The notes: generated by a model not told the origin, from the sequence alone. Shown: positions 24,264-60,254, counted from the stretch's first letter. The stretch is 64,000 nt of DNA from Bdellovibrio sp. ZAP7 (GCF_006874645.1 NZ_CP030082.1:1798001-1862000), one strand, 5' to 3'. Numbers and translations: made by a program.

Positions 24264-26765
24264 CTATAAACCCTTTCCGCGGCTCACTTCTTTGATCAAG
24301 AAGCGATTAGTTTGTTTTTTACATTTAACCAAAGAATCTTTTGCAGATACAATTCCGCAATCTGGATCCACTGTTGTCCATTTGAAGGGGTCCGATGTTC
24401 TTAAGCTTACAGGATTACAAATCCAGTGCTGGTACCTGTCGTTGACACCGATATTCGATTGCCACAATGGAGCAAGGGTGTTGGAGCAACCTAGGTAGTT
24501 GCCAGCTTTATCCTGGCCTAAGATCTTTGCATTGATAAGTTCTTGAACCGCTTGAGGTTGATAGATGCTGCTCCAACGAATGCCCGCAGTGTAGGCGGTC
24601 GGATGGATATTAAGTTGATTGGTGATGACTGTGCCGATGATACGTAGTGGTTGGGTACGCTGATTGATCGTCAGTTTTTCACAGACAAAGAAGCCGGTGA
24701 TAAAAGTTTGATCTTGTGTGATCACGCAGTTAGCCACCAATGAATCGGTACGGAATCTACCACCGGAAAGATTTACGGTTCCCTCGTTGTAGCCCGGATC
24801 ATTATTGTTAGCATAGGCAGGATTAAACTTCCAGGCGTGACGAGCTTGATCAGCGAAAGATGTATTCCATTTTGCAGCTGGGAACGCAGAATAGTCGGCG
24901 CCAGCATTGCCGGGATCTGGTGAGGCAAAACAACGGTCATCGAACTCCGCCAGATTCGTAGCGATTTCTGAAGGGCGGTGAAGTTTGTCATAATCAGCTT
25001 CATTTGGCATCGGATATTGAGGATCGTCTTGCCCCGTCATACCAGAAAAGTTAACCCATCTTGCCGGCGTCATGCCGTTGGGAAGTGCCCCGGTCAGTAC
25101 CATGGCACTTCCGGACTTTGTAAATGTCACGCCGTTTGTTTTTCTATAAAATTCACTCGTCGTGTTTTGGCGTAAGTTTTCCCCATCCAAGTAACCATAA
25201 TCGTAGGCTTCAAAAAGAAACTTAATACTTGGAGCCGATTTCACGTTGTTGTTAGCGGCACCGTTAGAATACGGTGCAAGATTCGGTTCGCCGTTAAAGG
25301 TAAATTTAAGATCCACTTGGTTGAACTGCTGACGTCCGGCGACGACCAAGGGAGTAGATTGAATGACGATTGAAGCGCCACCCATGCCGGAAGGATAAAG
25401 CGTAACTTGTCCTTCGCGGTGAACGTAAAATTCAGTATAGTAAATTCCGCGGTTTCCGGTTGGGCCTTGAAGGCCGTTATAGTAAACCTTTGCTTTCATG
25501 ATCGGGGTGCCCTGCGCGACAGTTACGGCGGCGTTCGCAAGAACTCCGGGTACATTCGTTTTTGAACTATATCCGTCCACTTGACCTTGTTCGATGAAGT
25601 TGTCGACGTTTCCTAAGTTAAATTGAACTACTGCTTTGTTCGATTCACTTAATGTCGGTCGCACCCACAATTGTGACGTTGTCGTTTGACTCAAATCATA
25701 AGATGCCATGATACGCTTACGGCACATTTTCTGAACGTCGAATACGCTTTCGCTGGCCTTGATGATATTGAACAGGTAATCAAGTCCTGTGTCGCGAGTC
25801 GCATCCAGTTCGAAACCACCTAACATGCCTGAAAAATTCGGCATGCTATAGTTGTACATATAGCCATCGCCGCCGGCCGTTTTCACGATGTAGGGAGCAT
25901 TGTCCATCTTGATGGTACCACCACCAAGAACAACTTTGTCTACAAAGATAACGTTGTTCATTGCTGGAGTTGTGTTGCTTGGAGGAAGACTTAAATCTCC
26001 ATTAATAAAAACCGGACTTTCAAAGCGCAGACCACCATTGGTATTTTGTACGCCAATATTATCCAGGCGGATATTTCCCGTCCCTGCATCGTTAGTTCCA
26101 GAACCCAAATTCAAGTTGTTTGAAACAATCAAAGCGAAATAGGTGAGCTCCCGTGGATAAACGATATTTCTGGAAGTTAAAGTTTGATTTAACTCAGGGT
26201 TGGTTTTGTGCTTCAAGAACACAGTGATTCGTAATGGTACCTCGCGACCACGAACGGCGGAGATGGCTGTGGAATCGCGGTCGATCGTGATGTTGGCAGA
26301 TTCAAATTCGTCAATAATAGGCGTCACCACGGAATAAAGCGGATGGCTGTTCGTCAAAGTGCTGAAATTAATATTACCCGTGATATTCATCAGGCGAGTG
26401 CTTGCCAATGGTTCGGGATGTGGAGTCTCAGAGTTTTTAATGAATAAAAGAGTTTCATCAGAAAGAAGAAGACGTTGAGTATAGCCTGCGTTTGTAAGAC
26501 CACAGTTCATATCCTGCGACCAGTTGGGCGATAAGCACCAGCTCTGTTTAATCGCATTGACCGTATAAGAATAAACCCCATCCAAAACCACCCGGTGGTC
26601 AGTCTTAGTCGCGGCCTTGTTTAATACTTTTGCCTGAGTTTCGATATAGGCAATGGAGGCAAAGAACATAATGCAAATCACCACCCCACCAATCAATGTG
26701 GTGAGGAGCACGGAGCCCTGTTGCGAGCGCAACAATCGCTTATGAAACGCACTTTGCTGGTTCAA
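24264..26765 (-). CDS. Large GspK/PilX-like prepilin protein, set A
   Basis: 833 residues from TTG 26765, chosen because AAAGGGG lies 6 bases upstream and because only then is the leader short. The frame stays open to 26891, but that leader would be 60 residues. The leader ends in RSQQG, then SVLLTTLIGGVVICIMFFASIAYI: a prepilin-like helix with Gly at -1 but Thr, not Glu, at +5, as in GspK/PilX minor subunits. The large body shares with the set B and C proteins YPREL..FAL, a [18 protein letters not shown] region, a WSSIYQPQ segment and a terminal DPFKWTTVDPDCG. It lacks their coiled-coil and Pro/Ser/Thr insertion. Proposed role: tip subunit of a pilus-like fibre. Confidence 0.78.
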   Translation of the reverse strand: MNQQSAFHKRLLRSQQGSVLLTTLIGGVVICIMFFASIAYIETQAKVLNKAATKTDHRVVLDGVYSYTVNAIKQSWCLSPNWSQDMNCGLTNAGYTQRLLLSDETLLFIKNSETPHPEPLASTRLMNITGNINFSTLTNSHPLYSVVTPIIDEFESANITIDRDSTAISAVRGREVPLRITVFLKHKTNPELNQTLTSRNIVYPRELTYFALIVSNNLNLGSGTNDAGTGNIRLDNIGVQNTNGGLRFESPVFINGDLSLPPSNTTPAMNNVIFVDKVVLGGGTIKMDNAPYIVKTAGGDGYMYNYSMPNFSGMLGGFELDATRDTGLDYLFNIIKASESVFDVQKMCRKRIMASYDLSQTTTSQLWVRPTLSESNKAVVQFNLGNVDNFIEQGQVDGYSSKTNVPGVLANAAVTVAQGTPIMKAKVYYNGLQGPTGNRGIYYTEFYVHREGQVTLYPSGMGGASIVIQSTPLVVAGRQQFNQVDLKFTFNGEPNLAPYSNGAANNNVKSAPSIKFLFEAYDYGYLDGENLRQNTTSEFYRKTNGVTFTKSGSAMVLTGALPNGMTPARWVNFSGMTGQDDPQYPMPNEADYDKLHRPSEIATNLAEFDDRCFASPDPGNAGADYSAFPAAKWNTSFADQARHAWKFNPAYANNNDPGYNEGTVNLSGGRFRTDSLVANCVITQDQTFITGFFVCEKLTINQRTQPLRIIGTVITNQLNIHPTAYTAGIRWSSIYQPQAVQELINAKILGQDKAGNYLGCSNTLAPLWQSNIGVNDRYQHWICNPVSLRTSDPFKWTTVDPDCGIVSAKDSLVKCKKQTNRFLIKEVSRGKGL

Positions 26766-26991
26766 ACAATCCCCTTTGTTCCATATTAATATCGGCAGAA
26801 ATGTTCCCTTATGTGAGGAACGGCTGACAAAAAAATCCGACCGTTTTGTCTGGGATTGAGACATAATATTTTTAGGCGTGCTATATGCCATCTGAGGATT
26901 GCGAATAAGTATTCATATTCCGGTCTTGAGGTCGGTTCCTCGATTGAGCTTCCTTGGTAGTCTAAAGAGACCATACAAAAGGGAGGTCCCT
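26766..26991. other. Divergent intergenic region, 226 bases
   Basis: Separates prepilin set A (minus) from a small basic protein gene (plus). Apart from the GCCGATAT element for set A and the GGGAGG ribosome site of the small gene, I see no further gene or strong signal. A minus-strand frame stays open through 26891 but reads as an unlikely leader of the large protein. Confidence 0.5.
26789..26796 (-). promoter_or_regulatory. Sigma-28-like -10 element before set A
   Basis: GCCGATAT on the minus strand, 7 of 8 bases matching the FliA -10 consensus GCCGATAA. It lies 24 bases before TTG 26765, the same distance as CCGATAA elements before sets B and C. No good -35 is seen at the standard spacing, though CATAAGG lies a little further upstream. 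Confidence 0.4.
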
Positions 26992-27171
26992 ATGTCTCGC
27001 CATAATAAGGGAAAAGGATTTAGTCAGACCAGTAAACGTTATGATGGAAACCTCAAGGAGCAGCGTCGTGCCGCCCATAATAAACAGATGGATCATTCTT
27101 CAGATGTTCAAGAGGAAGCACAGAGTGAGAACCGAGGTGGTGGTGAGAAAAACTCTACCAGCAGCCGCTGA
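26992..27171 (+). CDS. Small hydrophilic basic protein
   Basis: 59 residues from ATG 26992, which has a strong GGGAGG site 6 bases upstream. The sequence (SRHNKGKGFSQTSKRYDG, then a Gln/Glu/Arg-rich and Gly/Asn-rich tail) is charged and probably disordered, with no hydrophobic segment. A good terminator 32 bases after the stop supports a real short transcript. The function is unknown. Confidence 0.65.
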   Translation: MSRHNKGKGFSQTSKRYDGNLKEQRRAAHNKQMDHSSDVQEEAQSENRGGGEKNSTSSR

Positions 27172-27195
27172 GAATAAGTTCCGATAAATTAAATT

Positions 27196-27576
27196 TTAGG
27201 TAGAGCCTTGGCGGGAGCCAGGGCTTTTCTTTTTCGGAGATTTAGCTTTTTTCCCCGTCGATTTTTTCACGCTGGCGCTGTTACGAATTTTCTTTTTGGA
27301 AGCCGTTTTGCTGTTCGATTTTTTGGACTTTTTGCGGGACTTTTCAGCTCCGTACTTCTTTTTTGCTTCCTTCCGAATGGTGGCGTTTTCCTGAATGTAC
27401 GGAAGCATTCCTTGATAGCCCGTAACAGGTTCTGCAGCAGAAGTGGGAGCAGTTTCAGCCGGTGCTGTTACTGGGCCAGCTGCCGGAGCTGAGGTTTCTT
27501 GCGCCAACGCTTGAGTGAAAAATAATGCCGAAAATGAAATCACCAGGGTGTTCTTCAGAAGCTGTTTTATGTTCAT
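27196..27576 (-). CDS. Small exported Lys/Ser-rich protein
   Basis: 126 residues from ATG 27576. The signal peptide (about 1-24, ending TQALA) precedes an Ala/Pro/Thr-rich linker, a short segment around YQGMLPYIQENATIRKEAKKKYG, and a very basic tail rich in Lys and Ser (KKSNSKTASKKK, KKAKSPKKKSPG). The tail could bind nucleic acid, LPS or peptidoglycan, but that is inference. The 3' end contains the terminator of the convergent small gene. Confidence 0.72.
   Translation of the reverse strand: MNIKQLLKNTLVISFSALFFTQALAQETSAPAAGPVTAPAETAPTSAAEPVTGYQGMLPYIQENATIRKEAKKKYGAEKSRKKSKKSNSKTASKKKIRNSASVKKSTGKKAKSPKKKSPGSRQGST
27204..27234 (+). terminator. Intrinsic terminator after the small basic gene
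   Basis: AGCCTTGGC pairs with GCCAGGGCT (9 base pairs with one T-G, loop GGGA), followed by TTTCTTTTT. It is embedded in the last codons of the convergent exported Lys-rich protein gene. Confidence 0.75.
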
Positions 27577-27611
27577 GAGCAAAGATTAACGTGAATTTTC
27601 TGTAAGCTCAA

Positions 27612-28754
27612 CTATTTCCACACAGCTAATTCATCCCACGCACTGCGATTTTCAATCTGGCTGAAGTCATATACATCAATATGTGGAACATTTTTGGAGA
27701 TCACCTGCAGACTTTGTTGAAACTCTTCCAGATTCGGAGTGACAGTGCTGTGCTGTCCTCGCCACGGGGAGATTTCAATATGAATGATGGAATCACTTCG
27801 GTTCGCGACCAGATTTTCAAACTCTTTTGAGGCGGGCAAAGTCCATTGTGGAGTAAATACTGGAGTGCCATATTCCGCGCGCCACTGTTGCCACAAAAGT
27901 TCACCCACAATGAAGTCGATTTTCTGCTGTTTTTTTAAACTCAAAATTTCATTCAAATCAAAACCCACAGCATCACGCATTTTTTCGGACGTAAATAAAT
28001 GGCCTTCTGATTCCGCAGGCCAAGTTTGCACAACACCGGCTTTGATATTTTGCTGATGACTGATCTCAGCCATCATTCCTAAAAGTTCTGTCACACCTAA
28101 AGCACGCACCTTTTTCCAGTTTTCATCTCCTAATTTTCCAGAGGGAAAACGGGCAAAAAAAGCTTTATTGGCTTCGGAATTAAAATCGGCTTCGCCACGC
28201 CAGTAACAATCCACCGTGGGTTCGACAGCTTCCACCGCGTAAAGTTCGGGAAAGCGCATAACCAGATCTTGTAAAAATCCTTTCAGCCACACGCGATACT
28301 CTGGATGCCATGCTGAAAGAAAATAAGTCTGTGGCATCGGTTTATAATCATGACCCAAATTATTTTTTGAGCGCCATTCAGGACGAGCGTCCCAAACAGT
28401 TTTGTAATCGGTCAGTGAAATAACGGCGACAACTTTAAAGCCGTTAGCGCGGGCTAAATTATAAAGTTCGAGAAAAATATTTTTCTCTCCAAAGTGAGTT
28501 TCAACTTCCGTCAAAGGATACTCGGTTGGATAAAAGGCTCCATGATTTGAAACATAGGCATAAACGAACAATGTATTCACATGGGCTTCTTGCGCTCGAG
28601 AAATCACTTTTTGCGCAATTTCAGCAGCTGAAAGATGGGGATATAGTTCGTAAAAGTAGGAGGGGTCTACTCGCAGGCCGCGCAAAGATTCGCTGGCCCA
28701 TACGAAAGAAGGAAGAAAGAAAAGTAAGAAGGCAGAGATCCATCTCGTCATCAT
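27612..28754 (-). CDS. Exported TIM-barrel hydrolase-like protein
   Basis: 380 residues. The signal peptide (to about residue 20, ending FVWA) is followed by RGLRVDPSYFYELYP, then NTLFVYAYVSNHGAFYPTEY, HPEYRVWLKGFLQDLVMRFP, and AVEAVEPTVDCYWRG with acidic residues placed as at the ends of barrel strands. This order resembles the glycosyl-hydrolase-like GHL10/DUF187 and PgaB C-terminal type of TIM barrels, which act on surface or cell-wall glycans. The assignment is by pattern. Acting outside the cytoplasm is supported by the signal peptide. No operon partner is obvious; a short exported Cys-rich protein gene lies upstream on the same strand. Confidence 0.7.
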   Translation of the reverse strand: MMTRWISAFLLFFLPSFVWASESLRGLRVDPSYFYELYPHLSAAEIAQKVISRAQEAHVNTLFVYAYVSNHGAFYPTEYPLTEVETHFGEKNIFLELYNLARANGFKVVAVISLTDYKTVWDARPEWRSKNNLGHDYKPMPQTYFLSAWHPEYRVWLKGFLQDLVMRFPELYAVEAVEPTVDCYWRGEADFNSEANKAFFARFPSGKLGDENWKKVRALGVTELLGMMAEISHQQNIKAGVVQTWPAESEGHLFTSEKMRDAVGFDLNEILSLKKQQKIDFIVGELLWQQWRAEYGTPVFTPQWTLPASKEFENLVANRSDSIIHIEISPWRGQHSTVTPNLEEFQQSLQVISKNVPHIDVYDFSQIENRSAWDELAVWK

Positions 28755-28809
28755 GAGCTCCTAAAAGGGTCATGGTAACGAGGCTTAGTTTAGGAATCTA
28801 CCGGCGATG

Positions 28810-29283
28810 CTATGGTATTTGACAAGCGCGACGAAGCAGGTCTGCTTCACGCCAAGTTTGTAGGTCGCGAAGCGCGCCTTTTAAGTACCACATGATTTTA
28901 AATTGCTCATTAAACGGAAGCTGACAAAAACCTGTGTCGACATAGCAGCTCACATGATCATCAATGGCTTTGGTTTTAATGTCCCCACATTGCAAGCCTT
29001 CAACAGTTTCACGAAGTCGCTCCTGCAAACACAGGCGAACATCTTGCAGCCACAACTGACTGGAGATCTTAAATTTGGGCTCGTCCTTGACGAAAAGTTC
29101 GCAGTAAGGAATTCCGAAATTCTGCCAGTAGCCTTTTTTACCACAAGGATGTTCCTGTTCCATGCAGTGATAAAACTCACAGGATTTATTAGAGATCGGG
29201 CAGTCCAAGCCGCTGGCTTTGGCAGCTAAGGGCAGGGTGAAACTTGAAATAAGAATAAGGATCCAATTTTTAAGCATTTTCAT
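28810..29283 (-). CDS. Small exported Cys-rich protein
   Basis: 157 residues. The signal peptide (about 1-23, ending AAKA) is followed by a domain with about ten Cys (for example LDCPISNKSCEFYHCMEQEHPCG, then YCELF, VRLCLQ, LQCGD, VSCYVDTGFC), which suggests several disulfides and an oxidising compartment. The segment CGKKGYWQNFGIPYC is notable. No family is recognised. The gene is divergent from queA. Confidence 0.75.
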   Translation of the reverse strand: MKMLKNWILILISSFTLPLAAKASGLDCPISNKSCEFYHCMEQEHPCGKKGYWQNFGIPYCELFVKDEPKFKISSQLWLQDVRLCLQERLRETVEGLQCGDIKTKAIDDHVSCYVDTGFCQLPFNEQFKIMWYLKGALRDLQTWREADLLRRACQIP

Positions 29284-29433
29284 GAGATACCCGGGACTTT
29301 CTCAAAGAAGGGGCTTTTTAGCAATTTCGGAGGACCTGGTGGGAAATAACTATCGAATTTTCCAGGTTTTTGACAGGTAAAAGTTACTTCCGGAGCTTCA
29401 TTCCCGCAGGGAGCTGTGGTAAGAAAGCCCCCT

Positions 29434-31598
<2,165 letters not shown>

Positions 31599-31662
31599 CT
31601 GACATAACTATTGATTCTTCCATGGAATAATGCTGAATTTTAGCGTCATCATTGGAGGAATC

Positions 31663-32004
31663 ATGTTATTCAGACTACTAGTTAATGCAGCATTCGCGCA
31701 ATCTGCTCCAGCAGCAGGCGGCCAACCATCCACTCTTGAGATGTTTGTCCCATTCATCTTTATCTTCGTTATTTTCTATTTCCTTATTATCCGACCTCAA
31801 TCAAAACGCCAAAAAGAACATCAGAAGTTTTTGACTGAACTTAAGCGCGGTGACGAAGTCATCACGTCTTCTGGTATTTTGGGTCGTCTTGAAGGCATCA
31901 CTGACCAATTCGTGACTGTAGAGATCGCGGATGGCGTGAAAGTTAAAATGCTTCGTACTCAAATCGCGACAACTCAGAAAGCAGCAACAGAGGAAAAGAA
32001 ATAA
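31663..32004 (+). CDS. yajC: Preprotein translocase subunit YajC
   Basis: 113 residues from ATG 31663, preceded by TTGGAGGAATC. One membrane helix (VPFIFIFVIFYFLIIRP) is followed by the family signature SKRQKEHQKFLTELKRGDEVITSSGILG and a KMLRTQIA segment. YajC associates with SecDF and supports Sec-dependent export. The stop codon shares one base with the secD start, showing coupling. Confidence 0.96.
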   Translation: MLFRLLVNAAFAQSAPAAGGQPSTLEMFVPFIFIFVIFYFLIIRPQSKRQKEHQKFLTELKRGDEVITSSGILGRLEGITDQFVTVEIADGVKVKMLRTQIATTQKAATEEKK

Positions 32005-33692
32005 TGGAAGGACTACGTTGGAGAACCATCGGCGCGGCCGCTGGTATCGTATTGGCTCTCGTATGGTTTATGCCGAATATCGCTAACTTCGGTAATTCTT
32101 GGTGGCCATCTAAGCAAAAAATGAACTATGGCTTGGACATTCAAGGTGGTTTGCATCTTGTAATGGGTGTTGACGTTGATGGCGTGGTGAAAGAATCCAC
32201 GACTCGTTTAATGGCATCCATTAAAGCAGACACTGCGAAAGACAACATCGCATTGACTGACGTTAAATCTGAAAAGCCTGAGTCAGGCGAGTTGACTCTG
32301 CATTTTGCGGCGGGAGACAAAGCTAAAGTTCTTAAATACATGGCTGATAAACATCCTGCAGACCTGCAAGAGGTTGGCACGACGGATACAACAGCGACTT
32401 ATCGTTATTTCGATGCCTATTTGAATGACTATAAAAATCGCGTGATCCAGCAGGCGATTGAAACGATCCGTAACCGTATCGATGAGTTCGGTGTGGCGGA
32501 GCCTTCAATCTCTCAACAAGGTGCAAATCGTATCCTGGTTCAATTGCCGGGTATGGCCGACGCTGAAAAAGCAAAACAGTTGATCAATACAACTGCGAAA
32601 CTTGATTTCATGATCGTGTCTCACGAAAAAACTCCTCAAGAACTTCAAGTTTTGATTGCTGAAGCTGAAAAAGCTGGCGGTTATAAATTGGAAGGCATGA
32701 AGTACTCTGACTACGTCACTCGTATCAATAACGACCTTAAAGGTAAATTGCCTGAAAAGTCTGTTGTGTACTTCGAGAAATCTTCGAATGCCGCGACAAT
32801 GGAAGCTGGCGCCGTTCCGTATCTTCTTAAAACAGATACAGATCTAACTGGCTCTGCCTTGGATGACGCTTCTGTTGGTTATGACCAATATGGCGCTCCG
32901 ATGGTAACTCTTCGTTTCAACTCTGCGGGCGCGACTAAGTTCAGCGACCTGACGGGTGCAAACGCTGGTAAGCAAATGGCGATCGTTCTGGATAAAATCA
33001 TCAAATCTGCTCCAAGCATTCGAGAGCGTATTGGGGGTGGTTCTGCAACTATCACTTTGGGCGGCGGTCGTGACCGTAACCAAATGATGGATGAAGCGAA
33101 AATGATTTCCACAGCTCTTCGTGCGGGTGCATTGCCTGCGTCTTTGGAGCAATTGGAAGAACGTCGCGTAGGTCCTACATTGGGAGCTGACTCTATCAAT
33201 AAAGCTAAAATGGGTGCCTATATCGGTGCTGCACTGATCGTTCTATTTATGCTTATGTACTACAAAGGCATGGGTGTTGTGGCGACTGTTGCTTTGGCTG
33301 TGAACGTTTTGGGTGTTTTGGCGCTTCTAACTTCATTCGGTGCAACTCTGACTCTTCCGGGTATCGCCGCGATCGCCTTAACGGTCGGTTTTGCGGTGGA
33401 TGCGAACGTTCTGATCAATGAGCGCATTAAGGAAGAATTGGCAGCTGGTCACAGTTTGAAAGTGGCGATCAAAGAAGGCTACAACCGTGCGATGTCTGCG
33501 ATCATCGACTCCAACGTAACGACGGGTGCGACAGCTGTGGTGCTTTTGTACTTCGGTACGGGCCCAGTGCGTGGTTTCGCGGTGAACTTGTTGATCGGTA
33601 TCGTTACGACTTTGTTCGCGAACGTATTCTTCTCCAAAGTGATCGTGGATCAATTGGTTTACAAATTTAACGTGAAAAAGTTGTCAATCTAG
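32004..33692 (+). CDS. secD: Protein translocase subunit SecD
   Basis: 562 residues. N-terminal helix, then NYGLDIQGGLHLVMGVD (the D1 signature), a periplasmic P1 domain with IETIRNRIDEFGVAEPSISQQG, and a membrane half with LGGGRDRN, TLGADSINKAKMGAYIGAALIVLFM, and ALTVGFAVDANVLINERIKEEL with the conserved acidic D..V...R motif. SecDF uses the proton gradient to pull exported proteins through SecYEG. The start overlaps yajC by one base; secF follows after 14 bases. Confidence 0.97.
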   Translation: MEGLRWRTIGAAAGIVLALVWFMPNIANFGNSWWPSKQKMNYGLDIQGGLHLVMGVDVDGVVKESTTRLMASIKADTAKDNIALTDVKSEKPESGELTLHFAAGDKAKVLKYMADKHPADLQEVGTTDTTATYRYFDAYLNDYKNRVIQQAIETIRNRIDEFGVAEPSISQQGANRILVQLPGMADAEKAKQLINTTAKLDFMIVSHEKTPQELQVLIAEAEKAGGYKLEGMKYSDYVTRINNDLKGKLPEKSVVYFEKSSNAATMEAGAVPYLLKTDTDLTGSALDDASVGYDQYGAPMVTLRFNSAGATKFSDLTGANAGKQMAIVLDKIIKSAPSIRERIGGGSATITLGGGRDRNQMMDEAKMISTALRAGALPASLEQLEERRVGPTLGADSINKAKMGAYIGAALIVLFMLMYYKGMGVVATVALAVNVLGVLALLTSFGATLTLPGIAAIALTVGFAVDANVLINERIKEELAAGHSLKVAIKEGYNRAMSAIIDSNVTTGATAVVLLYFGTGPVRGFAVNLLIGIVTTLFANVFFSKVIVDQLVYKFNVKKLSI

Positions 33693-33706
33693 GATCGGTA
33701 GAAAAA

Positions 33707-34660: not shown

Positions 34661-34672
34661 TTAATAAAAACC

Positions 34673-34694
34673 AAAGGCCCCTTACGGGGCCTTT
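34673..34694 (+). terminator. Hairpin after secF
   Basis: AAAGGCCCC and GGGGCCTTT form a 9-base-pair stem with loop TTAC, 12 bases after the secF stop. Only TTT ends the stem and GTGC follows, so it may attenuate rather than fully stop transcription into recJ. Confidence 0.6.
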
Positions 34695-34709
34695 GTGCTT
34701 GGAGAATTT

Positions 34710-47444: not shown

Positions 47445-47527
47445 AAAGAATTATTTTAGCAGCATTTTTTTAGTTTTAGGAAGCAGCAATTCTGATTTAT
47501 GCTGAGTCTACCTCGAAGGAGTTTCCG

Positions 47528-47941: not shown

Positions 47942-48315
47942 GTTCGTTCATTTGGAGTGGGAAGGCGGCAAAAGTCTCTTTTTCCAAACCATGAATAGCG
48001 ATTTTTTGCGACAAGTTTGTAGAGACTGTCTCGGATAAATCCAGGGAGGACCCACCCAAGTCGAGACAGACCATAGACTCCACCCAAACCCGAAAGAATT
48101 TTAAGTACCGCCGCAGATCGGTGATAGATCTTACCTGACTCATAGTAGATCACTGTATCCAGGTTCTCGCGATCTTGAGCGGGAAGAAGCGCCTCCGCCG
48201 TCGAACCTTGGAGTGGGGCGAACAAAAAACGATGCTGTGGATCGCGAGTAATGACAGCATCCACAAAGCCATTACAAAGATGGCAGACGCCGTCGAAAAA
48301 CACCACATTTCTCAT
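47926..48315 (-). CDS. DCC-family (DUF393) thiol-disulfide oxidoreductase-like protein
   Basis: 129 residues from ATG 48315, preceded by GGAAG; ATG 48336 is an alternative with a weaker site. The signature VVFFDGVCHLCNGFVDAV near the start is the family motif with two Cys in a CHLC arrangement, followed by FLFAPLQG and IYHRSAAVLKILSGLGG. DCC proteins are thioredoxin-like but their substrates are mostly unknown. Cytoplasmic. Confidence 0.9.
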   Translation of the reverse strand: MRNVVFFDGVCHLCNGFVDAVITRDPQHRFLFAPLQGSTAEALLPAQDRENLDTVIYYESGKIYHRSAAVLKILSGLGGVYGLSRLGWVLPGFIRDSLYKLVAKNRYSWFGKRDFCRLPTPNERTYLLP

Positions 48316-48392
48316 TTTTACATCTTCCTTTTCCATAGCAATCCCAGGCTACAATCATTATACTACTTAAACAAGCTGTGGGGGCCTCACGA

Positions 48393-49010: not shown

Positions 49011-49013
49011 GGT

Positions 49014-49931: not shown

Positions 49932-49988
49932 GGGCAAAGGGCTATCACGGGCTTGAAACTCGGTCAATAAACGGCTCTAATAGACCGC

Positions 49989-50918: not shown

Positions 50919-51013
50919 GCTGAAACATTGTTCTCATTATATTCGGAACCTTCTATAAGGATCTGAAAAATCACGACAACTCGCGGATGTTCGTGGTGTC
51001 TTGTTTGTTTTGT

Positions 51014-51021
51014 TCCGATAA
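51014..51021 (+). promoter_or_regulatory. Sigma-28-like -10 element before set B
   Basis: TCCGATAA, 7 of 8 bases of the FliA -10 consensus, 23 bases before ATG 51044. A GTTTG sits upstream, but a -35 at standard spacing is poor. The support is the matching position of similar octamers before sets A and C. Confidence 0.45.
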
Positions 51022-51043
51022 GGAGCGATCAAACGAGGCTTCT

Positions 51044-54000
51044 ATGTCGGTGAAAAACAAGTCAGGGAACGCTATATTGCAGGTGCTTGCCGCGATCGTG
51101 GTTATGGGCATCAGTTTCTATTTCTTGTCGGCCTACGTAATCGCTCAACGAAAACAAATCGTAAAAACTAAAAATGTGGTGACGTTGAAATTCGCAGTGA
51201 ATAGTGCGATGGACTACGTCGTATTCGGTGTTCGTCAAAAGTATTGCTTCGACAACGGAACGATTTTGCAAAACATCGATGCTTGTAATTGGAAGCACGC
51301 AGGGAATGTTGAACGCCTGGTTATGTCAGATGAGCAACTTCAATCTTTAAGAGAGATGGTCGCAGCCGGTGCCAATATCGGACCGCATGATGCCGATATG
51401 AGTAAGCTGCGCCTGGATAAGATTGACCTGATGTTAAACTTTCCGGTCTCTCCAGCACATCCCTTGTTTCCGATCGTGGATGCTTTAAAAACAGTTGTGA
51501 ATGAAACAAACGGTCAAGTGATCAAGGTTAAAGGAATTCACATCGTACTTAATCGTCCTGAAAACAGTGGCTATTTACCCAAGGCAGGACGCGAAGTTTA
51601 CATAATGGCCGAAGCTTCGTTATTAGATGATGGCAACGAAGTGATCCAAGTGGGACGCGTACCTTTAAGTGTTCGATCACAGATTGCGATTTATCCCCGG
51701 GAAATGGGTTCCTTCGCTTTGGTGCTGCCTAAGGATCTTCATATGGATCAGTCGTGGAATGCATCTACGACAAACGGCGACGTGATTCTTCACAAGTTTA
51801 ATGACCGAGCCTCACTCGGTACAAGCACGGGGCTTGTCTTTAATAGTCCGGTGTTTGTGAACGGTAACATCTATTTACCGAATGACACCGGAGATGCAGG
51901 GACTTCGAACTATGCTGCGGTTACATTTGCAGACCGAGTTTATATGGGGAATGGGTGGATATTAAAGTCCGACGGAAATCCCTATGCTCCTGCGACCCTG
52001 GGTGGCTTGCCAGACCGGTATTGGTCGGACTCTCGCGTGTTTGGTGGTTTTTTAAATGGAATTGAAAATGACGGAAGTTCTGATGCCGGATTGGAAGTGA
52101 TGTCTGGGCAAGTGAGTAATTTGCCCGCCGGCGATTTTGACTGGAATCGTATTTGTGCCGATTATAATAAAAAGACAGTCGACATTGGCACCATGAAAGT
52201 TTCTAAGATCAAAGCAAAAATGGTTGATGATTCAACTGACGGTTCCACGCAAAAATCCAAATATAAAATTACTTTGAGTAACTATAATCAGTACTATCCG
52301 CAAAAAAATCCGATTCCAGCTCCGAATGTTGAAAAGTGGAAGCCGGGGACAGCCTCTGTCACGAATATTAATAAGTATGGTGATGCAACGACCACGGGGG
52401 CAGTAACTTCCATCATTCTGGCCTACGGGATTGGATCAGACTATCGCGAAGTGATATTTGATATGACGAAATACGGGACAGCTGTTTTGCAGCCGCAGGT
52501 TGTAAATGAAGATCGTCGTAAAAATTTGGAAGCGGCTCTTAAAGAAGCTAACGATACGATCAATAAGTCCTCTGACAAAACGAATGCTCTGCAATCTGAT
52601 TTAAATAAATCGAATACTGATTTAGCCGCTGCAAATACAGATTTAGCAAAAAAGAAAGATGAATTGAATGCAGAATTGGCAAAACCAGTTTACGCAAGCC
52701 CTTCTCCGAGTCCGACCGTAAGTCCAAGCCCCACGGCAAGTCCGAGTGCCAGCCCAACTGTGAGTCCTTCTCCGACGGCTTCACCATCTGTATCTCCGAC
52801 CGTATCTCCTTCGGTAACTCCGACAGCGTCGGCCAGTGTGACTCCTTCACCATCAGCGACAACAAGTCCTTCTCCAAGTCCTTCTCCAACTCCAACTCCG
52901 ACAGCAACCGTGGGAGATCCATCCCTGTATCAAAATCCTGATACGATAGCTAAGCTGAACCAGGAGATCGATGCTTTAAACAAAAAGATCAATGATCTGC
53001 AGGCGCATATTGCTGATTTAAAAAATGTTCAGATTCCAGCGAATGATAAAAACAATTCGGAAGCAAAGGCCACTGTGTCTTCAGCTACAGCGGCCCTGGC
53101 CGATTATCAGCAAATGATCGACAATCCTCCGAAATTTACGATTGAGATGGATGCGATGAAAACGGGAAGTGGTCGTGAATATCTGGACCGCGCCTATTTA
53201 TCTGTGAACCTAACAAATGCAGCTAACTTACGCGACACTGATGGAAATAAGATCACCGTTTTTTCGGTCCGTTTTAAAGCCTATGATGGAACTTATTGGA
53301 ATAGTATACCGGTTGCGCCCGATGCAAACAGCCCCACGCATTTGCTTGGTTATCTCAATTATTCTATTGATAGTGCTGGTAATATCACAAGACCTTCGGG
53401 GCTTTCTGCCACAGCTAACACCTCTGGCACAGAAGAAGATGAGTCCGGTAATTCAACCGACATTGCGCAAGCCTGTGAAGATTTTTACGACAACATGAAC
53501 TCTCAATCCTTCGGAGCCGCAAACTGGGGAACAAGCTTTGCCGGAGGTACACGTTCTTCATGGAATTTTGCGGGTGTTGATAGTTCCGTTCCTAAAGAAA
53601 AGGGACACGAAAGTGAACCGATCTTGGAAGAAAGAATATTTAATTCAGACAGTACTGAATTCTTAGTGAATTCCATCGTTGGAAATTGTGTCATTAAAGC
53701 CGGTACAAACTTTGTCACGGGTTTTTATACTTGTGACAATTTGACTATCGAGGGTGGACGTACGAAGCCTCTGACAATCATTGGGACTTTTATCATTGGT
53801 AAGACTTTGAAAATCAATGAACAGGCCATTCGTATCGGAATTCAGTGGAGTAGCATTTATCATCCGCAATCTACGCGTATCTTGCGTTCACGAAAAATTT
53901 TGAAACCCATGACTGAGCCAGATAACGTCGCGAAGTGTGATAATTTACCATCTCCCATTTGGCATCCCATTCCTTCCATTCAAGAAACTGCAGATCGCAT

Positions 54001-54169
54001 GGCTTGTAACGTGATCAGTCTGCGTGCGAAGGCGGATCCTTTCAAGTGGACGGCGGTGGATCCTGATTGTGGAGTGGATCCGGCAAAACAACAGACAGTT
54101 CCAACATGCAAACGTCGTATTATTCGTTATTTCGTGGTTGAGCAATCCAGAGAAGGGTTGGGAATGTAA
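51044..54169 (+). CDS. Large GspK/PilX-like prepilin protein, set B
   Basis: 1041 residues from ATG 51044 with GAGG 5 bases before it. A short leader ends in KNKSG, then [24 protein letters not shown], with Gly -1 but Gln at +5 instead of Glu. The body (to about 487) matches sets A and C. A predicted helix (about 488-549), a Pro/Ser/Thr/Ala-rich run (about 552-623) and a second helix (about 629-694) follow, then a conserved C-terminal region ([47 protein letters not shown]). Proposed: tip subunit of a pilus-like complex, exposed outside and possibly adhesive. It overlaps the next gene by one base. Confidence 0.8.
52697..52913 (+). repeat. Pro/Ser/Thr/Ala-rich coding micro-repeat, set B
   Basis: Short degenerate DNA repeats of the type TCTCCGAGTCCG or ACTCCGACAGC encode about 72 residues of almost only Pro, Ser, Thr, Ala and Val (for example [13 protein letters not shown]). 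It is flanked by two helical segments and is absent from set A. Such repeats can change length by slippage. Confidence 0.85.
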
Positions 54170-54618
54170 TGAAAAAACTTAATTCTCGGGGACAAACAAT
54201 AGTTGAATCTCTGGTGGCGTTGGGATTGATTTCCTTTATCGGTCTTATCTTTTTTGGTGGTTTGGTGCAGCTTCGTAAAACGACGTCTGATAGTTTGCTG
54301 GATTCCGCTACGGATAGGCAGATTGCTGATATCGCTGAAAACATCAAGGCGGGCGTACAAAAGTACCAGGTGAATTTCAATCTTGATAAAGCAGCGCTAG
54401 AAACTTTATTAAAGCCGGAAAATCTTCCCATGGTGTGGGATGTCGGTGTGGTGGCTGAAAAAGGTCAGTGTGATCGATGTCAGGGAACCTATGGGTATGT
54501 CATTCAGCCTTTCGACAAGTATCGGGGTCTTTACATGGTGACCCTTCGTCTTTCACATAAAAGCTGGCTCCCGCATGAGACCTATCGTGACTACAACTTT
54601 ATAGTGAGTGCGAAGTGA
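54169..54618 (+). CDS. GspI/PilV-like prepilin, set B
   Basis: 149 residues. The leader MKKLNSRG precedes QTIVESLVALGLISFIGLIFFGGL, giving Gly -1 and Glu +5. The short globular part has a CDRCQGTYGYV motif, probably a disulfide, and ends NFIVSAK. The start overlaps the large protein's stop by one base, so the subunits are made together. It is close to the set C counterpart (60251-60709) over its whole length. Confidence 0.87.
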   Translation: MKKLNSRGQTIVESLVALGLISFIGLIFFGGLVQLRKTTSDSLLDSATDRQIADIAENIKAGVQKYQVNFNLDKAALETLLKPENLPMVWDVGVVAEKGQCDRCQGTYGYVIQPFDKYRGLYMVTLRLSHKSWLPHETYRDYNFIVSAK

Positions 54619-55616
54619 TGTTTAGAAATCAAAAAGGCTTAACTTTAGTGGAAATGATGCTCGGGATCGGTTTATTCGCGATCGTGATTTCTATTATTGT
54701 TTCAGTTCAGGTGAAAATGTCTCAACAACAGGTCGAGATGATTAGAAAACTGGATGATTCCGTTGATCAGCATTTGGCTGAAAGGATCCTATTCAAAGAT
54801 TTAAGTGGCATCGATATTTCCTACAATAATCTTATCGTTAAAGACGACCATGGAAATAACTTTTATGATTTTTATCCCGATATCACAGAGAACATTTTAA
54901 AAGTTCGGGCCGATCGCGAATTGAATTTAAAGCTAGGTGGGAAGGATTCATTTTTCGTTTTCTCTCAAAATTCAGCGGCAGGCCCACTTTTAACCTATGA
55001 CCCTATGTGGGCCTATGATGTCGGTCCAGAACCCGCAGATCCAAATACTCCAGCAACACTGGAATTCAATGGTGAAAAAAATAGGAAATGGATTTCAAAT
55101 GAAAGTAATGGCGGTCGTCCTGGCTTTTGGAAAGTCGGGCACCTTTTGTTTTATGATACTCCCAGCCGTATTCGTCCCAGTGTTGGGGATGTCATTGATA
55201 AAACGATTCCACCACGAAGTTCATTTTATTTGGGCGCTGTTATTTCTGGAAGCGATCTTTTACAAAATGTTTCAGGTGAGGCTGCAGGGCTTTTTAATAT
55301 GACTGAACCAGACAGCGGGGATGCGATCCCGAGCCTTGACGGTTTTTTAAGAAATGTACCTTCTGTGGGGGGCGGTCAGACGGTGGTGCGTGTGCGTGCT
55401 GCTAGACTTGTAAAGTATTACATCGAACCTGATACGAAAAAAAATGCAGATCTTTATAAGCTTGCTCCAGCGAATTTTTTTATGGCGGAGTATCGCGATG
55501 GTCAGTTTGAAAAGCCCACATTGCTTGCTGACGGTGTGGGGCGAGTTTTGTTTCGTCGTGATTCAGTGGTCAAAAAAATGATTTACTTCAAAATTGAAAA
55601 AGCAGAGTTGAAATAG
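54615..55616 (+). CDS. GspJ/PilW-like prepilin, set B
   Basis: 333 residues from GTG 54615; ATG 54618 is an equal alternative. The leader ends RNQKG, then LTLVEMMLGIGLFAIVISIIVS, with Glu +5. The globular domain includes GNNFYDFYPDITENIL, RKWISNESNGGRPGFWK, LLFYDTPSRIRPS, PSVGGGQTVVRVR and VLFRRDSV near the end. It matches the set C protein closely and set A more weakly. It overlaps the preceding gene by four bases. Expected to be cleaved by a prepilin peptidase and assembled with its two partners. Confidence 0.87.
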   Translation: MMFRNQKGLTLVEMMLGIGLFAIVISIIVSVQVKMSQQQVEMIRKLDDSVDQHLAERILFKDLSGIDISYNNLIVKDDHGNNFYDFYPDITENILKVRADRELNLKLGGKDSFFVFSQNSAAGPLLTYDPMWAYDVGPEPADPNTPATLEFNGEKNRKWISNESNGGRPGFWKVGHLLFYDTPSRIRPSVGDVIDKTIPPRSSFYLGAVISGSDLLQNVSGEAAGLFNMTEPDSGDAIPSLDGFLRNVPSVGGGQTVVRVRAARLVKYYIEPDTKKNADLYKLAPANFFMAEYRDGQFEKPTLLADGVGRVLFRRDSVVKKMIYFKIEKAELK

Positions 55617-55662
55617 AATGAATTTGGATAGTTCAGGACGTTTTTTGCGCAAGGGGAGCGTT

Positions 55663-56934
55663 ATGAAAAAAAGTATTTGCTTGATAGCTATCGTCGCGTG
55701 GTATTCCGCAGTTGCTCACGCTGATCAAGCGTCCGTGGTGACGGTCGGTAAAGACGTACCTATGGCGGTCAACTCTGTTTCCACTGGTGAATCCCTATCG
55801 GGTGCTCCAGCCTCTGGAACAGTGACTCGTTCGGGAAAAAGCACCATGACAGTTCGCTTGATCAACTCCTGCTTTGCAACGAATTTGCGGGCGGTTTCAA
55901 ATCCGTTGGCGAAAAGCTCGCTGATTAATGCTGATATCGATATCATGGTGGGTGGTACCAAGTACCATCTGTTTGCAGAATATCCCGCTGCCCTCGTGGG
56001 TGCTGGCGGAAGTGGTGTTCCAGCTTCTGGGACCGTGTCGAACTTTAATGCTTCTAAAGCCAGTGTCGATCCTGTCGGGGGGACCGTTTCGGCGTTTGGT
56101 AATATTGTCGAATTCAGAACGAAAATACCTACGGCGGTTACCGTTGATAATGAAGCTAATATCACGATTTCGAAAGATTCAGTTTCTTTAGGAAAGATGT
56201 CTTTCCTGCAAACGGTTCAAGACTGCAATGCGGGACCTGTGTTTGGTGATTATGGTTGGTCATCTAAAATGCCGACTTATAAATGTGGTGCATTCATGGG
56301 GAAAGACGGGGATATAACCGCAACATTTGGTGGTTTTAACGTTGCTCCCGACCGTTCCTTGGTTGAACTTTTCATCAGCTTTCCGGGCGAGACGGGTTTT
56401 TGTGGAGGGTTCTGGTCACCGTTGATGGTATTCTTTGATGATAAACTTCCTAAGTTTAATACTCTTTCTGATTTCCCTTTAAACCCAGGGGGAAAAGTCT
56501 ATTGGCCAGATGCAAAGAGCCCTGGATTTTTTCTGGCGATGGATCGCGATCGCAACGGAAAGATCGATCAAAAGGATGAACTTTTTGGTGATAACAATTC
56601 GGCTATTAATGGCTTTGAGTCTTTGAAGAAACTCGATAGCAATCATGATGGTTTCATTGATGCTAAAGACAAAGACTTTGCAAAATTAGTCTTATGGAAT
56701 GACGAAAATGCAGATGGTATCAGTCAACCTCGGGAACTGACAAAAGCAGGATTGAAACTTACTAGAATTTCTTTGAAATACCGTGTGAGTGCAGAAAGTT
56801 TAGGAAACGCGGAAATTCGCGAGCGTGCAAAGTTCTGGTACACCGATTCGAAAGGAAAGGTGCGCGCGGGTAATATTTATGACATTTGGCTTGCACCTCA
56901 TATTCCGAGCCGTCTTGCAGAAACGAAATTATGA
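55663..56934 (+). CDS. Secreted EF-hand-like calcium-loop protein, set B
   Basis: 423 residues from ATG 55663, which has AAGGGGAG upstream and gives the same length as the set C protein; a frame open from 55618 adds a leader. The signal peptide ends near AVAHA. Shared N-terminal text with set C is VPMAVNSVSTGES, GAPASGTVTRSG, then CFATNLRAVSNPLAKSSL. Three calcium loops start near residues 294, 325 and 347 (DRDRNGKIDQKDELFGD, DSNHDGFIDAKD, DENADGISQPREL). It should act outside the cytoplasm, probably with the pilin-like subunits encoded just before it. Confidence 0.83.
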   Translation: MKKSICLIAIVAWYSAVAHADQASVVTVGKDVPMAVNSVSTGESLSGAPASGTVTRSGKSTMTVRLINSCFATNLRAVSNPLAKSSLINADIDIMVGGTKYHLFAEYPAALVGAGGSGVPASGTVSNFNASKASVDPVGGTVSAFGNIVEFRTKIPTAVTVDNEANITISKDSVSLGKMSFLQTVQDCNAGPVFGDYGWSSKMPTYKCGAFMGKDGDITATFGGFNVAPDRSLVELFISFPGETGFCGGFWSPLMVFFDDKLPKFNTLSDFPLNPGGKVYWPDAKSPGFFLAMDRDRNGKIDQKDELFGDNNSAINGFESLKKLDSNHDGFIDAKDKDFAKLVLWNDENADGISQPRELTKAGLKLTRISLKYRVSAESLGNAEIRERAKFWYTDSKGKVRAGNIYDIWLAPHIPSRLAETKL

Positions 56935-57140
56935 GATGACAGGTCTCATGAAGAGACGTTTCCTATATTAGGATTTCAGTGCAAATTTTGAAATGTCTTT
57001 AAATGAAACAGAAGGACGTTTTTATTGATACAAAAGTGCGCAGATACTTAGCGTAATTACCTAAAATTCCTTGAAAAGTCCGGTTGTTCCATAAGGTTTG
57101 TCGGGTTCTTTACCGATAAGTTCTCACAGGAGCCATCGGT
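56935..57140. other. Intergenic region between sets B and C, 206 bases
   Basis: Holds a weak hairpin straddling the set B stop (ATGAGA 56931-56936 with TCTCAT 56944-56949, no T tract) and the sigma-28-like promoter of set C at 57092-57119. No small gene is seen. Confidence 0.55.
57092..57119 (+). promoter_or_regulatory. Sigma-28 (FliA)-like promoter of set C
   Basis: TAAGGTTT (57092-57099), 12-base spacer, ACCGATAA (57112-57119). The consensus is TAAAGTTT, 11 bases, GCCGATAA, so each element matches 7 of 8 with one extra spacer base. The start codon is 22 bases further on, preceded by AGGAG. Confidence 0.6.
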
Positions 57141-60100
57141 ATGTTTATGAAAACGAGTAAACAAAAAGGTAACGCAATTCTGCAGGTGCTTACCGCTATC
57201 GCGGTCATGAGCATTAGTTTTTATTTCCTGTCTGCGTACGTTATCTCTCAACGAAGACAAGTAGTTAAAACTAAAAACGTAGTAAACCTAAAATTCGCAG
57301 TAAATAGCGCGATGGACTACGTGGTGTTTGGTATCCGTCAAAAGTATTGCTTTGATAATGGATCACTTTTGCAAAACACCACCAGCTGCGACTGGAACAA
57401 CCCAGGTAACGTCGAACGTTTGGTGATGTCAGATGAACAGTTGGCATCCCTTAAGGGAATGGTGGCTGCTGGCGCGAATATTGGTCCCCATGATTCCAAT
57501 TTGGATAAATTACGCCTTGATGCCATTGATATGACATTGAACTTTCCGGTGTCCTCAGCCCATCCCTTATTTCCGGTCGTGAACAATTTGAAACGTGTCG
57601 TGGATGAGCAAACGGGTAAAGAAATTCCCGTTCAAGGTATTCGTATGTATTTGAGTCGTCCAGCTAACTCCGGTTATTTGCCGAAAGCGGGACGTGAAGT
57701 TTACATCTCGGCACAGATTTCATTGATCGATAAAAACAAAACGGTCATCCAAATCGGAAGTGCACCTCTTGAAGTGCGTGCGCAAATCGCTATCTATCCA
57801 CGCGAGCTAGGTTCCTTTGCGCTGGTTCTTCCCGGTGACCTTCGCATGGACCGTACGTGGGATTCCGTTCCGCCGAAAAATGGCGACGTTATTTTCCATA
57901 AATTTGCAAACAAAGCAACCATGGGCACAAGCCCCGGCATGATTTTTAAAAGCCCCGTTTTCGTAAACGGTAACATCAACTTACCTGTGGATAGCGGCAA
58001 TGCTTCTAACTCGAACTACGCTGGCGTAACCTTTGCGGATCGCGTGTACATGGGGAATGGTTGGATTTTAAAACCCGACAACTCTCCGTATAATCCACCA
58101 ACTCAGGGTGCACTTCCTGACCGTTATTGGTCTGATTCCCGCGTGTTTGGCGGTTTCCTAAGAGGTATCGAAAACGATGGTATGCGTGACTTGGGTCTTG
58201 ACGTTATGTCAGGAACTGCCAGTGGCTCATCTGGTACTGAATTTGACCTTAATAAGATTTGTGCGGAACTTAATCAAAAAAGTACACAACTTGAATCCAT
58301 GGAGGCGTCTAATATTAAGGCCACTCCTGGAACGAATCCAGACGACCCATATCGTGTTGTTCTTACGAATTACAATACGTTCTATCCTCAAAAAAATCAG
58401 TTGCCGTCTCCAACCACGTCAGGAGACTGGAGTACTGGTAAGTGGTCTGTTGATAATAAGAATAAGTTAACGGGTGCTATTATGAACGTTGAATTTTCAT
58501 ACGGTACAGGTGCTGATGCCCGTTCATTTAGTGTCGATCTGGTTAAGGACGGGAATGTTACAATTTACCCTCCTGTTCTAAATCCAGCGAGAAAAGCAGC
58601 AATCGTCGCAAGCTTAAATCAGGCTAACACTGATTATAAGAACGCAAAAAATGCAGACACATCGAATGCAGATAGCTTAACTAAGCTAAAAAATAAGTTA
58701 AATACCGCAGAATCGGAGTTAAGAAATTTAGAAGATCAATTAGATGCAGAGCAAGCGAAGCCAGTGGAGCCAGTGGCAACACCGTCTCCTTCACCGACGG
58801 CTACGGCAACAGTTTCGCCAAGTCCGACGGCAACAGCTACGGCAACGGCATCTCCGACTGCCACGGCTTCACCGACAGCTTCACCGACAGCTTCACCGAC
58901 AGCAACAGCTACGGCATCTGCTTCGCCGACAGCGACAGCGTCGGCTTCTCCAACAGCAACAGCCTCGGCTTCTCCAACAGCCACAGCAACAGCAAGTGCT
59001 ACAGCATCACCAACAGTTTCTCCGACAGTGACACCTCCTCCAGGTGGGTACCAGGATTCAGATAAGATCAAAGACTTAAAGACTCAGATTTCAGTCAAAA
59101 AATCGGAAATTTCTGATTTGAAAAATCAGATCAGTGCTGCTGAAACAAATTCGACGAATTATTCCAAGGCCATGACAGACGCCCAAAATAATATTGCGAA
59201 GTATACGGCACAGCTTGATGCCTATACGGCTTTGGAAAAAAATCCTCCGTCATTCGAAATTGACTTGGACAAAGCTTACAGCTGGACAGGAAAAGAATAT
59301 AAAGATCGTCTGGATGTTTTTATCAGTATCAATAATGGGTTGTACCTAATGAACAGTGCGGGTGTCCGTATTGCTGATTTCTCAATTCGTCTTAAAGGTT
59401 ACGACGGTACTTACTTTAATAGTATTCCGGTCCGTTCAACAGCGGATCCCGCCCATCTGCGTGGTTATTTAAACTACCATATCGGAGCTAGTGGTAATAT
59501 CACTCGTCCTACCGGTCTTTCCTCAACGTCTTCAGCAGGTGTTACGTCCGATGAGACGGCAGATATGGCTGCAAAGTGCGAAGACTACTATAATATGATT
59601 AACTCCCAGTCTTTCGGTGCTGCGAACTGGGGTGTGAGCTTCTCTCCAGGTACAAGAAAATCTTGGAACTTCGCAGGTGATTTGAACGCGACCGCGGCTG
59701 ACCCTGTGGTGCCAACAAGAGTTTGGCAAGTCGATGATCAAGACTTCTATGTTCGCTCGATCGTTAAAGACTGCGTGATTACTCCTAAGGCGAACTTTGT
59801 GGCTGGATTCTATACTTGTGACAACTTGACGATCCAAGGCGGTCGTACGAAACCATTGCGCATCATCGGTACCTTTATCATTGGTAAGACTCTGAAAATC
59901 GATGAACAGGCGATTCGCACGGGTATCGTTTGGAGCAGTATCTACTATCCTCAGGCGACTCAAGAATTGAGAGAGCGTGGAATTTTGCATCCATTATCAG
60001 AGCCTAGCAATATTACGAAATGTGATAATTTGCCGTCACCGATCTGGCATCCGATGCCGTCTATCCAAGAAACAGCGGATCGTATGGCTTGTAACGTGAT

Positions 60101-60254
60101 CAGTTTACGCGCGAAAGCAGATCCATTTAAGTGGACAGCAGTGGATCCGGATTGTGGTATCCCGGTAGGGGCGACACAAACCGTTCCGACTTGTAAACGT
60201 CGTATCTACCACTATTTCGTTGTCGAGCAGTCTAGGGAAGGTTCAGGACTATGA
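57141..60254 (+). CDS. Large GspK/PilX-like prepilin protein, set C
   Basis: 1037 residues from ATG 57141 with AGGAG 8 bases upstream. The leader ends SKQKG, then [24 protein letters not shown], Gln at +5. The N-terminal 480 residues are very close to set B ([63 protein letters not shown]). A helix (about 484-540), a Pro/Thr/Ala/Ser run (about 545-635) and another helix (about 639-698) follow, with little sequence in common with set B in this insert. The C terminus ([35 protein letters not shown]) is again strongly conserved. It overlaps the next start by four bases. Confidence 0.8.
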   Translation: MFMKTSKQKGNAILQVLTAIAVMSISFYFLSAYVISQRRQVVKTKNVVNLKFAVNSAMDYVVFGIRQKYCFDNGSLLQNTTSCDWNNPGNVERLVMSDEQLASLKGMVAAGANIGPHDSNLDKLRLDAIDMTLNFPVSSAHPLFPVVNNLKRVVDEQTGKEIPVQGIRMYLSRPANSGYLPKAGREVYISAQISLIDKNKTVIQIGSAPLEVRAQIAIYPRELGSFALVLPGDLRMDRTWDSVPPKNGDVIFHKFANKATMGTSPGMIFKSPVFVNGNINLPVDSGNASNSNYAGVTFADRVYMGNGWILKPDNSPYNPPTQGALPDRYWSDSRVFGGFLRGIENDGMRDLGLDVMSGTASGSSGTEFDLNKICAELNQKSTQLESMEASNIKATPGTNPDDPYRVVLTNYNTFYPQKNQLPSPTTSGDWSTGKWSVDNKNKLTGAIMNVEFSYGTGADARSFSVDLVKDGNVTIYPPVLNPARKAAIVASLNQANTDYKNAKNADTSNADSLTKLKNKLNTAESELRNLEDQLDAEQAKPVEPVATPSPSPTATATVSPSPTATATATASPTATASPTASPTASPTATATASASPTATASASPTATASASPTATATASATASPTVSPTVTPPPGGYQDSDKIKDLKTQISVKKSEISDLKNQISAAETNSTNYSKAMTDAQNNIAKYTAQLDAYTALEKNPPSFEIDLDKAYSWTGKEYKDRLDVFISINNGLYLMNSAGVRIADFSIRLKGYDGTYFNSIPVRSTADPAHLRGYLNYHIGASGNITRPTGLSSTSSAGVTSDETADMAAKCEDYYNMINSQSFGAANWGVSFSPGTRKSWNFAGDLNATAADPVVPTRVWQVDDQDFYVRSIVKDCVITPKANFVAGFYTCDNLTIQGGRTKPLRIIGTFIIGKTLKIDEQAIRTGIVWSSIYYPQATQELRERGILHPLSEPSNITKCDNLPSPIWHPMPSIQETADRMACNVISLRAKADPFKWTAVDPDCGIPVGATQTVPTCKRRIYHYFVVEQSREGSGL
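58774..59045 (+). repeat. Pro/Thr/Ala/Ser-rich coding micro-repeat, set C
   Basis: About 90 residues of ASPTA/TATAS-type repeats encoded by short units such as TCACCGACAGCT and TCTCCAACAGCAACAGC. Blocks repeat almost exactly (for example around 58870-58905 and 58936-58980), suggesting recent expansion. It is longer than the set B run and different in unit. Confidence 0.87.

Follow-up and report, generated by a model that had tools for sequence, protein, structure and literature searches.

The 64-kb stretch of DNA from Bdellovibrio sp. ZAP7 analysed here (NZ_CP030082.1:1798001-1862000; hereafter the window), part of a 4.12 Mb single-contig genome, carries three genes for giant prepilins, termed K_A, K_B and K_C, each of which opens a set of four genes, K, I, J and S. 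We propose that each of these cassettes probably encodes a self-contained and exchangeable tip complex for a filament of the type IV class, in all likelihood the type IVa pilus, in which K caps the filament, I and J couple, and the secreted protein S acts as a calcium-dependent, cleavage-dead cap in the role of PilY1. The observations that carry this proposal are the conserved content and order of the cassettes, the absence of Glu at position +5 (Glu5) from K only, the fold of S with its Asp-to-Ser change, and the co-divergence of the four genes.

Giant prepilins and their four-gene cassettes

The preliminary description of this DNA had placed at the head of each set a prepilin-like protein of 830-1040 residues with Gly at -1, a pilin-like helix, and Thr or Gln at +5. 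These features are read directly in the three open reading frames, A at 24264-26891 on the minus strand, and B at 50987-54169 and C at 57141-60254 on the plus strand. Each has the Gly at -1 followed by an uncharged pilin-type helix, as in class III leaders, and the cleavage contexts QQG/SVLLT (A), KSG/NAILQ (B) and QKG/NAILQ (C) put Thr at +5 of K_A and Gln at +5 of K_B and K_C. The frame of K_A comprises 875 codons, within which translation probably starts at a TTG (26765) preceded by AGGGGA, giving a gene at 24264-26765 and an 833-residue preprotein, in agreement with the 830 residues first given as the lower size. The predicted mature proteins have 816, 1033 and 1027 residues. The relatives that bear names are all Bdellovibrio or Bdellovibrionaceae metagenome-assembled genomes, and the named rows of the tree fall in the family Pseudobdellovibrionaceae, phylum Bdellovibrionota; a scan of viral contigs found no additional K sequences.

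Homologues were gathered from 66 genomes of the family, and then from the order and the phylum. The N terminus can be read in 56 non-redundant K proteins of the family, and among these position +5 is Gln in 35, Thr in 7, Leu in 5, Tyr and Met in 3 each, and Ala, Ser and Phe in one each, but never Glu, whereas Glu or Asp occupies this position in all 76 I proteins and in 75 of the 77 J proteins of the same cassettes; for the two J exceptions, the scan window stopped short of the prepilin motif. At distant loci, 19 of 20 could be read by eye (L101 is unreadable), and none has Glu at +5, the residues including Met, Thr, Val, Phe, Gly, Ile, Leu and Gln; at L098, L106 and L117 two cleavage frames are possible for K. 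The absence of Glu5 from K, which the preliminary description had noticed, thus goes beyond chance. As a control, the type II secretion system (T2SS) operon of the same genome encodes Glu5 in GspG, GspH, GspI and GspJ, and Val5 in GspK. According to published work, the subunit that caps a tip complex has no Glu5 (PMC10191384), and the PilX proteins of Myxococcus xanthus also lack it (PMC7541494). The loss of Glu5 in K only, together with its retention in I and J, is the signature of a capping subunit of the GspK/PilX type, and at the level of sequence it supports the earlier reading of K as a tip subunit.

Analysis of the phylum revealed K in 64 of 369 genomes, with up to four cassettes in one genome (G003, for example, holds two, L040 and L041) and 78 cassettes read in total. 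Downstream of these 78 K genes, I is found in 76 cases, J in 77 and S in 70. The gene for S lies upstream instead at three loci (L099, L106 and L110), two loci end at a contig edge (L013, where a partial S is still visible, and L057), and no S was found in L072-L074, three loci of one genus. In the window, the giant protein is the first of its set, as had been described, but the sets are four-gene units, and their essential fourth protein, S, had been missed. Mantel correlations of K with I, J and S reach 0.92, 0.96 and 0.95, respectively, against a shuffled maximum of 0.24; these values include a contribution of shared ancestry, yet whichever of the four genes is considered, each window cassette groups with the same relatives. 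The sister duplication of B and C is likewise visible in all four genes, B and C being a lineage-specific tandem duplicate and A belonging to a separate old clade.

The I proteins have about 140-150 mature residues, J about 325 and S about 400, and in cassettes B and C the reading frames of K and I, and of I and J, overlap. In cassette A, on the minus strand, I_A (23792-24262; RGFTMIEL) scores over the N_methyl cut-off and J_A (22791-23843; RGMTVTEL) has about 322 mature residues. Their counterparts on the plus strand are I_B (54169-54618; RGQTIVES), J_B (54615-55616; KGLTLVEM), I_C (60251-60709; KGQSIVEA) and J_C (60706-61722; KGLSLAEL), and all of these prepilins carry Glu5. The match of J to GspJ is confined to the N-terminal helix, and that of I to GspI is weak and covers 38 residues.

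Other prepilins and prepilin-like matches occur elsewhere in the genome. At about 92 kb, a 973-codon giant prepilin frame with Glu5 (L089, 6516-9437; GFSALEMM) adjoins a GspJ-like prepilin, and at about 3.17 Mb (L085, 6901-9946) a pair of Glu5 prepilins is divergent to a 347-residue prepilin-like protein with Ser5, forming a different minor-pilin set. A second GspK-like match, at 3200760, was rejected as a false hit, as its frame resembles the transcription accessory protein Tex.

Anatomy and tentative fold of K

Nine Cys residues are invariant across 44 aligned K proteins (C60, C331, C595, C663, C678, C743, C766, C786 and C798 in K_A), a tenth is present in 80% of them, and in 35 of these proteins the total is exactly ten. 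Because this number is even and constant, it suggests disulfides and an extracytoplasmic K head. Two C-terminal blocks that had been singled out earlier, WSSIY-P-Q and DPFKW-VDPDCG, are indeed common to A, B and C and recur across the phylum. In K_A, on the minus strand, they read WSSIYQPQ (24552-24575; mature residues 714-721) and DPFKWTTVDPDCG (24354-24392; mature residues 775-787); the W, S and I of the first are each at least 90% conserved, and the P-D-C-G of the second is invariant in 38 homologues. The suggestion that these proteins could be enzymes is not supported, as no catalytic family was found in K and the blocks are located where the chain leads back into the final strand of the pilin fold.

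Profile searches of K against Pfam, NCBIfam and the PDB returned nothing beyond coiled-coil matches to the stalk described below. No Pfam or NCBIfam model of a pilin family, including GspK (PF03934) and PilX_N, matches K, and no significant match to the GspK of the same genome was detected. The earlier statement that the blocks belong to no nameable family holds for sequence, whereas a low-confidence structural model offers a neighbour for K.

This model, predicted by AlphaFold2 for mature K_A from seven sequences, tentatively presents a first helix of 55 residues followed by four pilin-like strands, after which come a series of short strands, a β-rich region, a second series of strands and a last strand at residues 805-813, with an extra β-sandwich-like region at residues 345-536. 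Structure prediction and fold search had been proposed in the preliminary description, and structural alignment of this weak model using VIA-align gave as top row ComZ of Thermus thermophilus (PDB 6QVI), with a Z of 6.8 over 267 residues (model 40-816 to chain 14-525). ComZ is the sole solved structure that spans nearly the whole model, the rows after it being limited to residues 340-540, where the sandwich arrangement is a common one. By Z alone it is tied with those rows; nevertheless, we give the match weight because of its coverage and because ComZ had been chosen for comparison before any fold search. In ComZ, a solenoid separates the penultimate pilin strand from the last one (PMC6561018), and the strand order of the K model, with its last strand following the inserted part, agrees with this arrangement. 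The comparison weakly points to ComZ, a GspK-like pilin with an inserted β-solenoid, as the structural neighbour of K.

Similar to K, ComZ is an oversized pilin without Glu5 (it has Gly5) whose gene adjoins that of a partner pilin; the large domain inserted before the last strand of its GspK-like pilin domain would be a further shared feature, and its tip position has been argued structurally (PMC6561018). However, K is larger (816-1369 residues, compared to 518 in the solved ComZ chain), and differs in the nine invariant Cys, the extra β-sandwich-like region, the frequent coiled-coil stalk and the secreted partner S. No sequence similarity between K and ComZ was detected.

The stalk is an insert of 100-215 extra residues within the β-rich region of K_B, K_C and many relatives, and is absent in K_A. 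It consists of coiled-coil-like helices, which flank a low-complexity Ser/Pro/Thr run of 74 residues in K_B (approximately 52505-53146, plus strand) and an Ala/Ser/Pro/Thr run of 93 residues in K_C (approximately 58578-59240, plus strand); in genome G003 the run is Gly/Thr-rich. We infer that the insert of B and C forms a coiled-coil hairpin with a Ser/Thr/Pro-rich tip.

A thioredoxin-like protein (AhpC-TSA; 63016-63510) is encoded convergently to the end of cassette C, a position that may be due to chance or may bear on the many Cys of the K heads. Clustered just downstream of cassette A are three proteins of 724-772 residues with a spermine/spermidine-synthase domain (12667-14985, 16323-18566 and 18563-20737).

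The Sec-exported partner S

The C-terminal half of S, as modelled, has the fold of the self-processing module (SPM) of FrpC, which is the strongest fold assignment of this study. A profile from 29 S proteins matches the FrpC SPM at 6e-28, and the AlphaFold2 model of S_A (pLDDT, the predicted local distance difference test, of 72.5) retrieves it by Foldseek at 7e-11. Superposition by VIA-align against 6sjw gave a Z of 20.1 and a root-mean-square deviation (RMSD) of 2.1 Å over 152 aligned residues (model 213-379 to chain 1-172). S_A (21586-22794, minus strand) has a Sec signal ending in AFAA, an N-terminal β domain and the SPM-fold domain (21589-22098, minus strand; mature residues 210-379), and the SPM fold recurs in S_B (55618-56934, plus strand; signal ending in AHA) and S_C (61744-63015, plus strand; signal ending in AFA). 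As read from the sequence, S is thus a protein of about 400 residues with an N-terminal Sec-type signal ending in AXA, and not a large RTX exoprotein of a type I secretion system (T1SS). Its other half is β-rich, with only weak matches, the best being to streptococcal pilins at a Z of 4.0.

Residue 1 of the 6sjw chain is Pro415, the first after cleavage, and it aligns with mature Pro213 of S_A (precursor Pro236), which is invariant. Therefore, Pro213 is the cleavage-site Pro, and Ser235 sits at the position of the catalytic Asp414; the dipeptide Ser235-Pro236 (22087-22092, minus strand) takes the place of the scissile Asp414-Pro415 of FrpC. Ser-Pro occupies this position in 69 of 70 S proteins. 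The sole Asp-Pro is found in L069 of genome G030 (SSDPLMIF), and this S may still be self-cleaving. Since it is the catalytic Asp that forms the anhydride in FrpC (PMC7078468), the clip-and-link reaction should be lost in almost all S proteins. The EF-hand-like loops of the SPM are conserved in S, as is the Sec signal, and calcium binding is predicted from the sequence; the module would thus serve S as a calcium-dependent fold rather than as a clip-and-link device.

Compared to the FrpC SPM (6SJW/6SJX; PMC7078468), S retains the fold over the whole module, the three EF-hand-like loops, both core tryptophans and the cleavage-site Pro. It differs in the Ser that replaces the scissile Asp, in a partial fourth calcium site (D419/D421/D423) that is not kept as such, in a Sec signal where FrpC is an RTX/T1SS protein, and in the location of its gene in a pilin operon. 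S therefore has the SPM fold but lacks the catalytic feature by which the module is defined, and it is not PilY1. A search of the open-access literature for 'self-processing module' together with 'pilin' returned only a general RTX review. We know of no other SPM-fold protein tied to a pilin operon, and S would be the first.

Cutting of the Asp-Pro in the VDPDCG motif of K by S in trans was considered and set aside as unlikely, as the SPM works in cis at the N terminus of its own chain, the Asp is missing from S, and invariant Cys surround the motif in K. SPM-like domains also occur outside the cassettes, one as a fourth copy in the same genome (2719683-2720105, in a 480-codon frame) and another in a 1133-codon frame of genome G007, which lacks K.

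The proposed tip complex and its rivals

We propose that K, I and J, synthesised as prepilins, are processed behind the Gly and kept in the inner membrane. I and J, with Glu5, could dock beneath another subunit, whereas K would cap the filament like GspK or PilX, because without Glu5 nothing could dock above it. The head of K, large and stabilised by disulfides, would interrupt the pilin fold ahead of its last strand as in ComZ, and in B and C the coiled-coil hairpin would extend further from this head. Exported separately by Sec, S would fold its SPM domain on calcium outside the cytoplasm and sit on K as a terminal, probably adhesive cap, in the role of PilY1. Several cassettes in a genome would then provide alternative tips for one machine.

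A precedent is found in M. xanthus, where a single machine serves three clusters, each of four minor pilins plus PilY1 (PMC7541494), and where PilY1 is a calcium-binding protein (PMC8833165). The PilX/PilW/PilV/FimU plus PilY1 clusters and the present cassettes both occur in multiple copies per genome, and both combine minor prepilins, one of them without Glu5, with a Sec-exported protein that is not a pilin, which binds calcium in the case of PilY1 and is predicted to do so in that of S. However, the cassettes encode three prepilins rather than four, and an SPM-fold S without a PilY1 domain. PilX is also far smaller than K.

Several results weigh against the proposed pilus tip. The cassettes encode no H/FimU-like adaptor, no pilus machinery genes lie beside any of them in the window, and no Pfam match to the C-terminal domain of PilY1 (PF05567) was obtained in S_A, S_B or S_C. 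For K, the profile searches yielded no pilin among the matches, and the K_A model is weak, with a pLDDT of 52.8 and a predicted template modelling score of 0.38. Its Z to ComZ is less than 1 above those of unrelated rows (at most 5.9), at an RMSD of 8.1 Å, and Foldseek found with it no hit at E below 0.001 and no pilin, as expected at this pLDDT. Finally, PilB and GspE homologues are present in nearly all 369 phylum genomes, compared to K in 64; the cassettes are therefore not the core priming complex, but accessory.

The genome itself encodes a prepilin peptidase and PilB, in addition to a complete T2SS that is separate and includes a GspK, and the occurrence of PilB and GspE does not separate the two machines, as nearly all genomes have both. 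The cassettes might be alternative T2SS pseudopilus tips, in which K-I-J replace GspK-I-J and S is a dedicated substrate pushed by K through the secretin. This is unlikely, although a triad lacking Glu5 only in K follows the logic of the co-encoded GspI, GspJ and GspK, and PilY1 has been termed an analogue of T2SS substrates (PMC7541494). The T2SS operon already holds a full GspGHIJK set, K does not match the T2SSK family and its head is unrelated in sequence to that of GspK, and up to four cassettes per genome fit interchangeable pilus tips better. The resemblance to ComZ, the closest solved structure by whole-length alignment and a DNA-binding protein (PMC6561018), raises the question of a DNA receptor for natural transformation as in Thermus. 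We consider this improbable, as a weak similarity in fold is no proof of function, no counterpart of the putatively calcium-binding S has been described for ComZ, K is patchily distributed and multi-copy, and the stalk of B and C resembles a device for reach or adhesion. Most improbable of all, K would be an ordinary signal-anchored envelope protein with an incidental Gly at -1; its cleavage is only predicted and it matches no Pfam or NCBIfam pilin model, but the Gly right before an uncharged helix recurs in every readable K, across several families, and K is constantly linked to two clear prepilins with a complementary Glu5 pattern.

Within the pilus-tip proposal, a bolder version is conceivable, though we would not count on it: these would be exchangeable pilus tips found among predators throughout the phylum, with a catalytically disarmed clip-and-link module in the place of PilY1, where it would cap a giant ComZ-like pilin under the control of calcium, and rare Asp-Pro members such as that of L069 would weld the tip covalently to a target or neighbour.

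Bdellovibrio invades its prey using pili (PMC3818213), and this predator's Kil Tad pilus has multiple tips (PMC12075869). In the open-access papers on Bdellovibrio pili listed by our searches, we found neither a tip complex of minor pilins nor an equivalent of PilY1 described for the type IVa pilus, a negative that within this scope does not prove novelty. K would function like GspK/PilX and resemble ComZ, yet by sequence it matches none of their families. Altogether, the cassettes are concrete candidates for a tip complex of the Bdellovibrio type IVa pilus, and the Asp-to-Ser change in S shows that the SPM fold can persist for a purpose other than cleavage.

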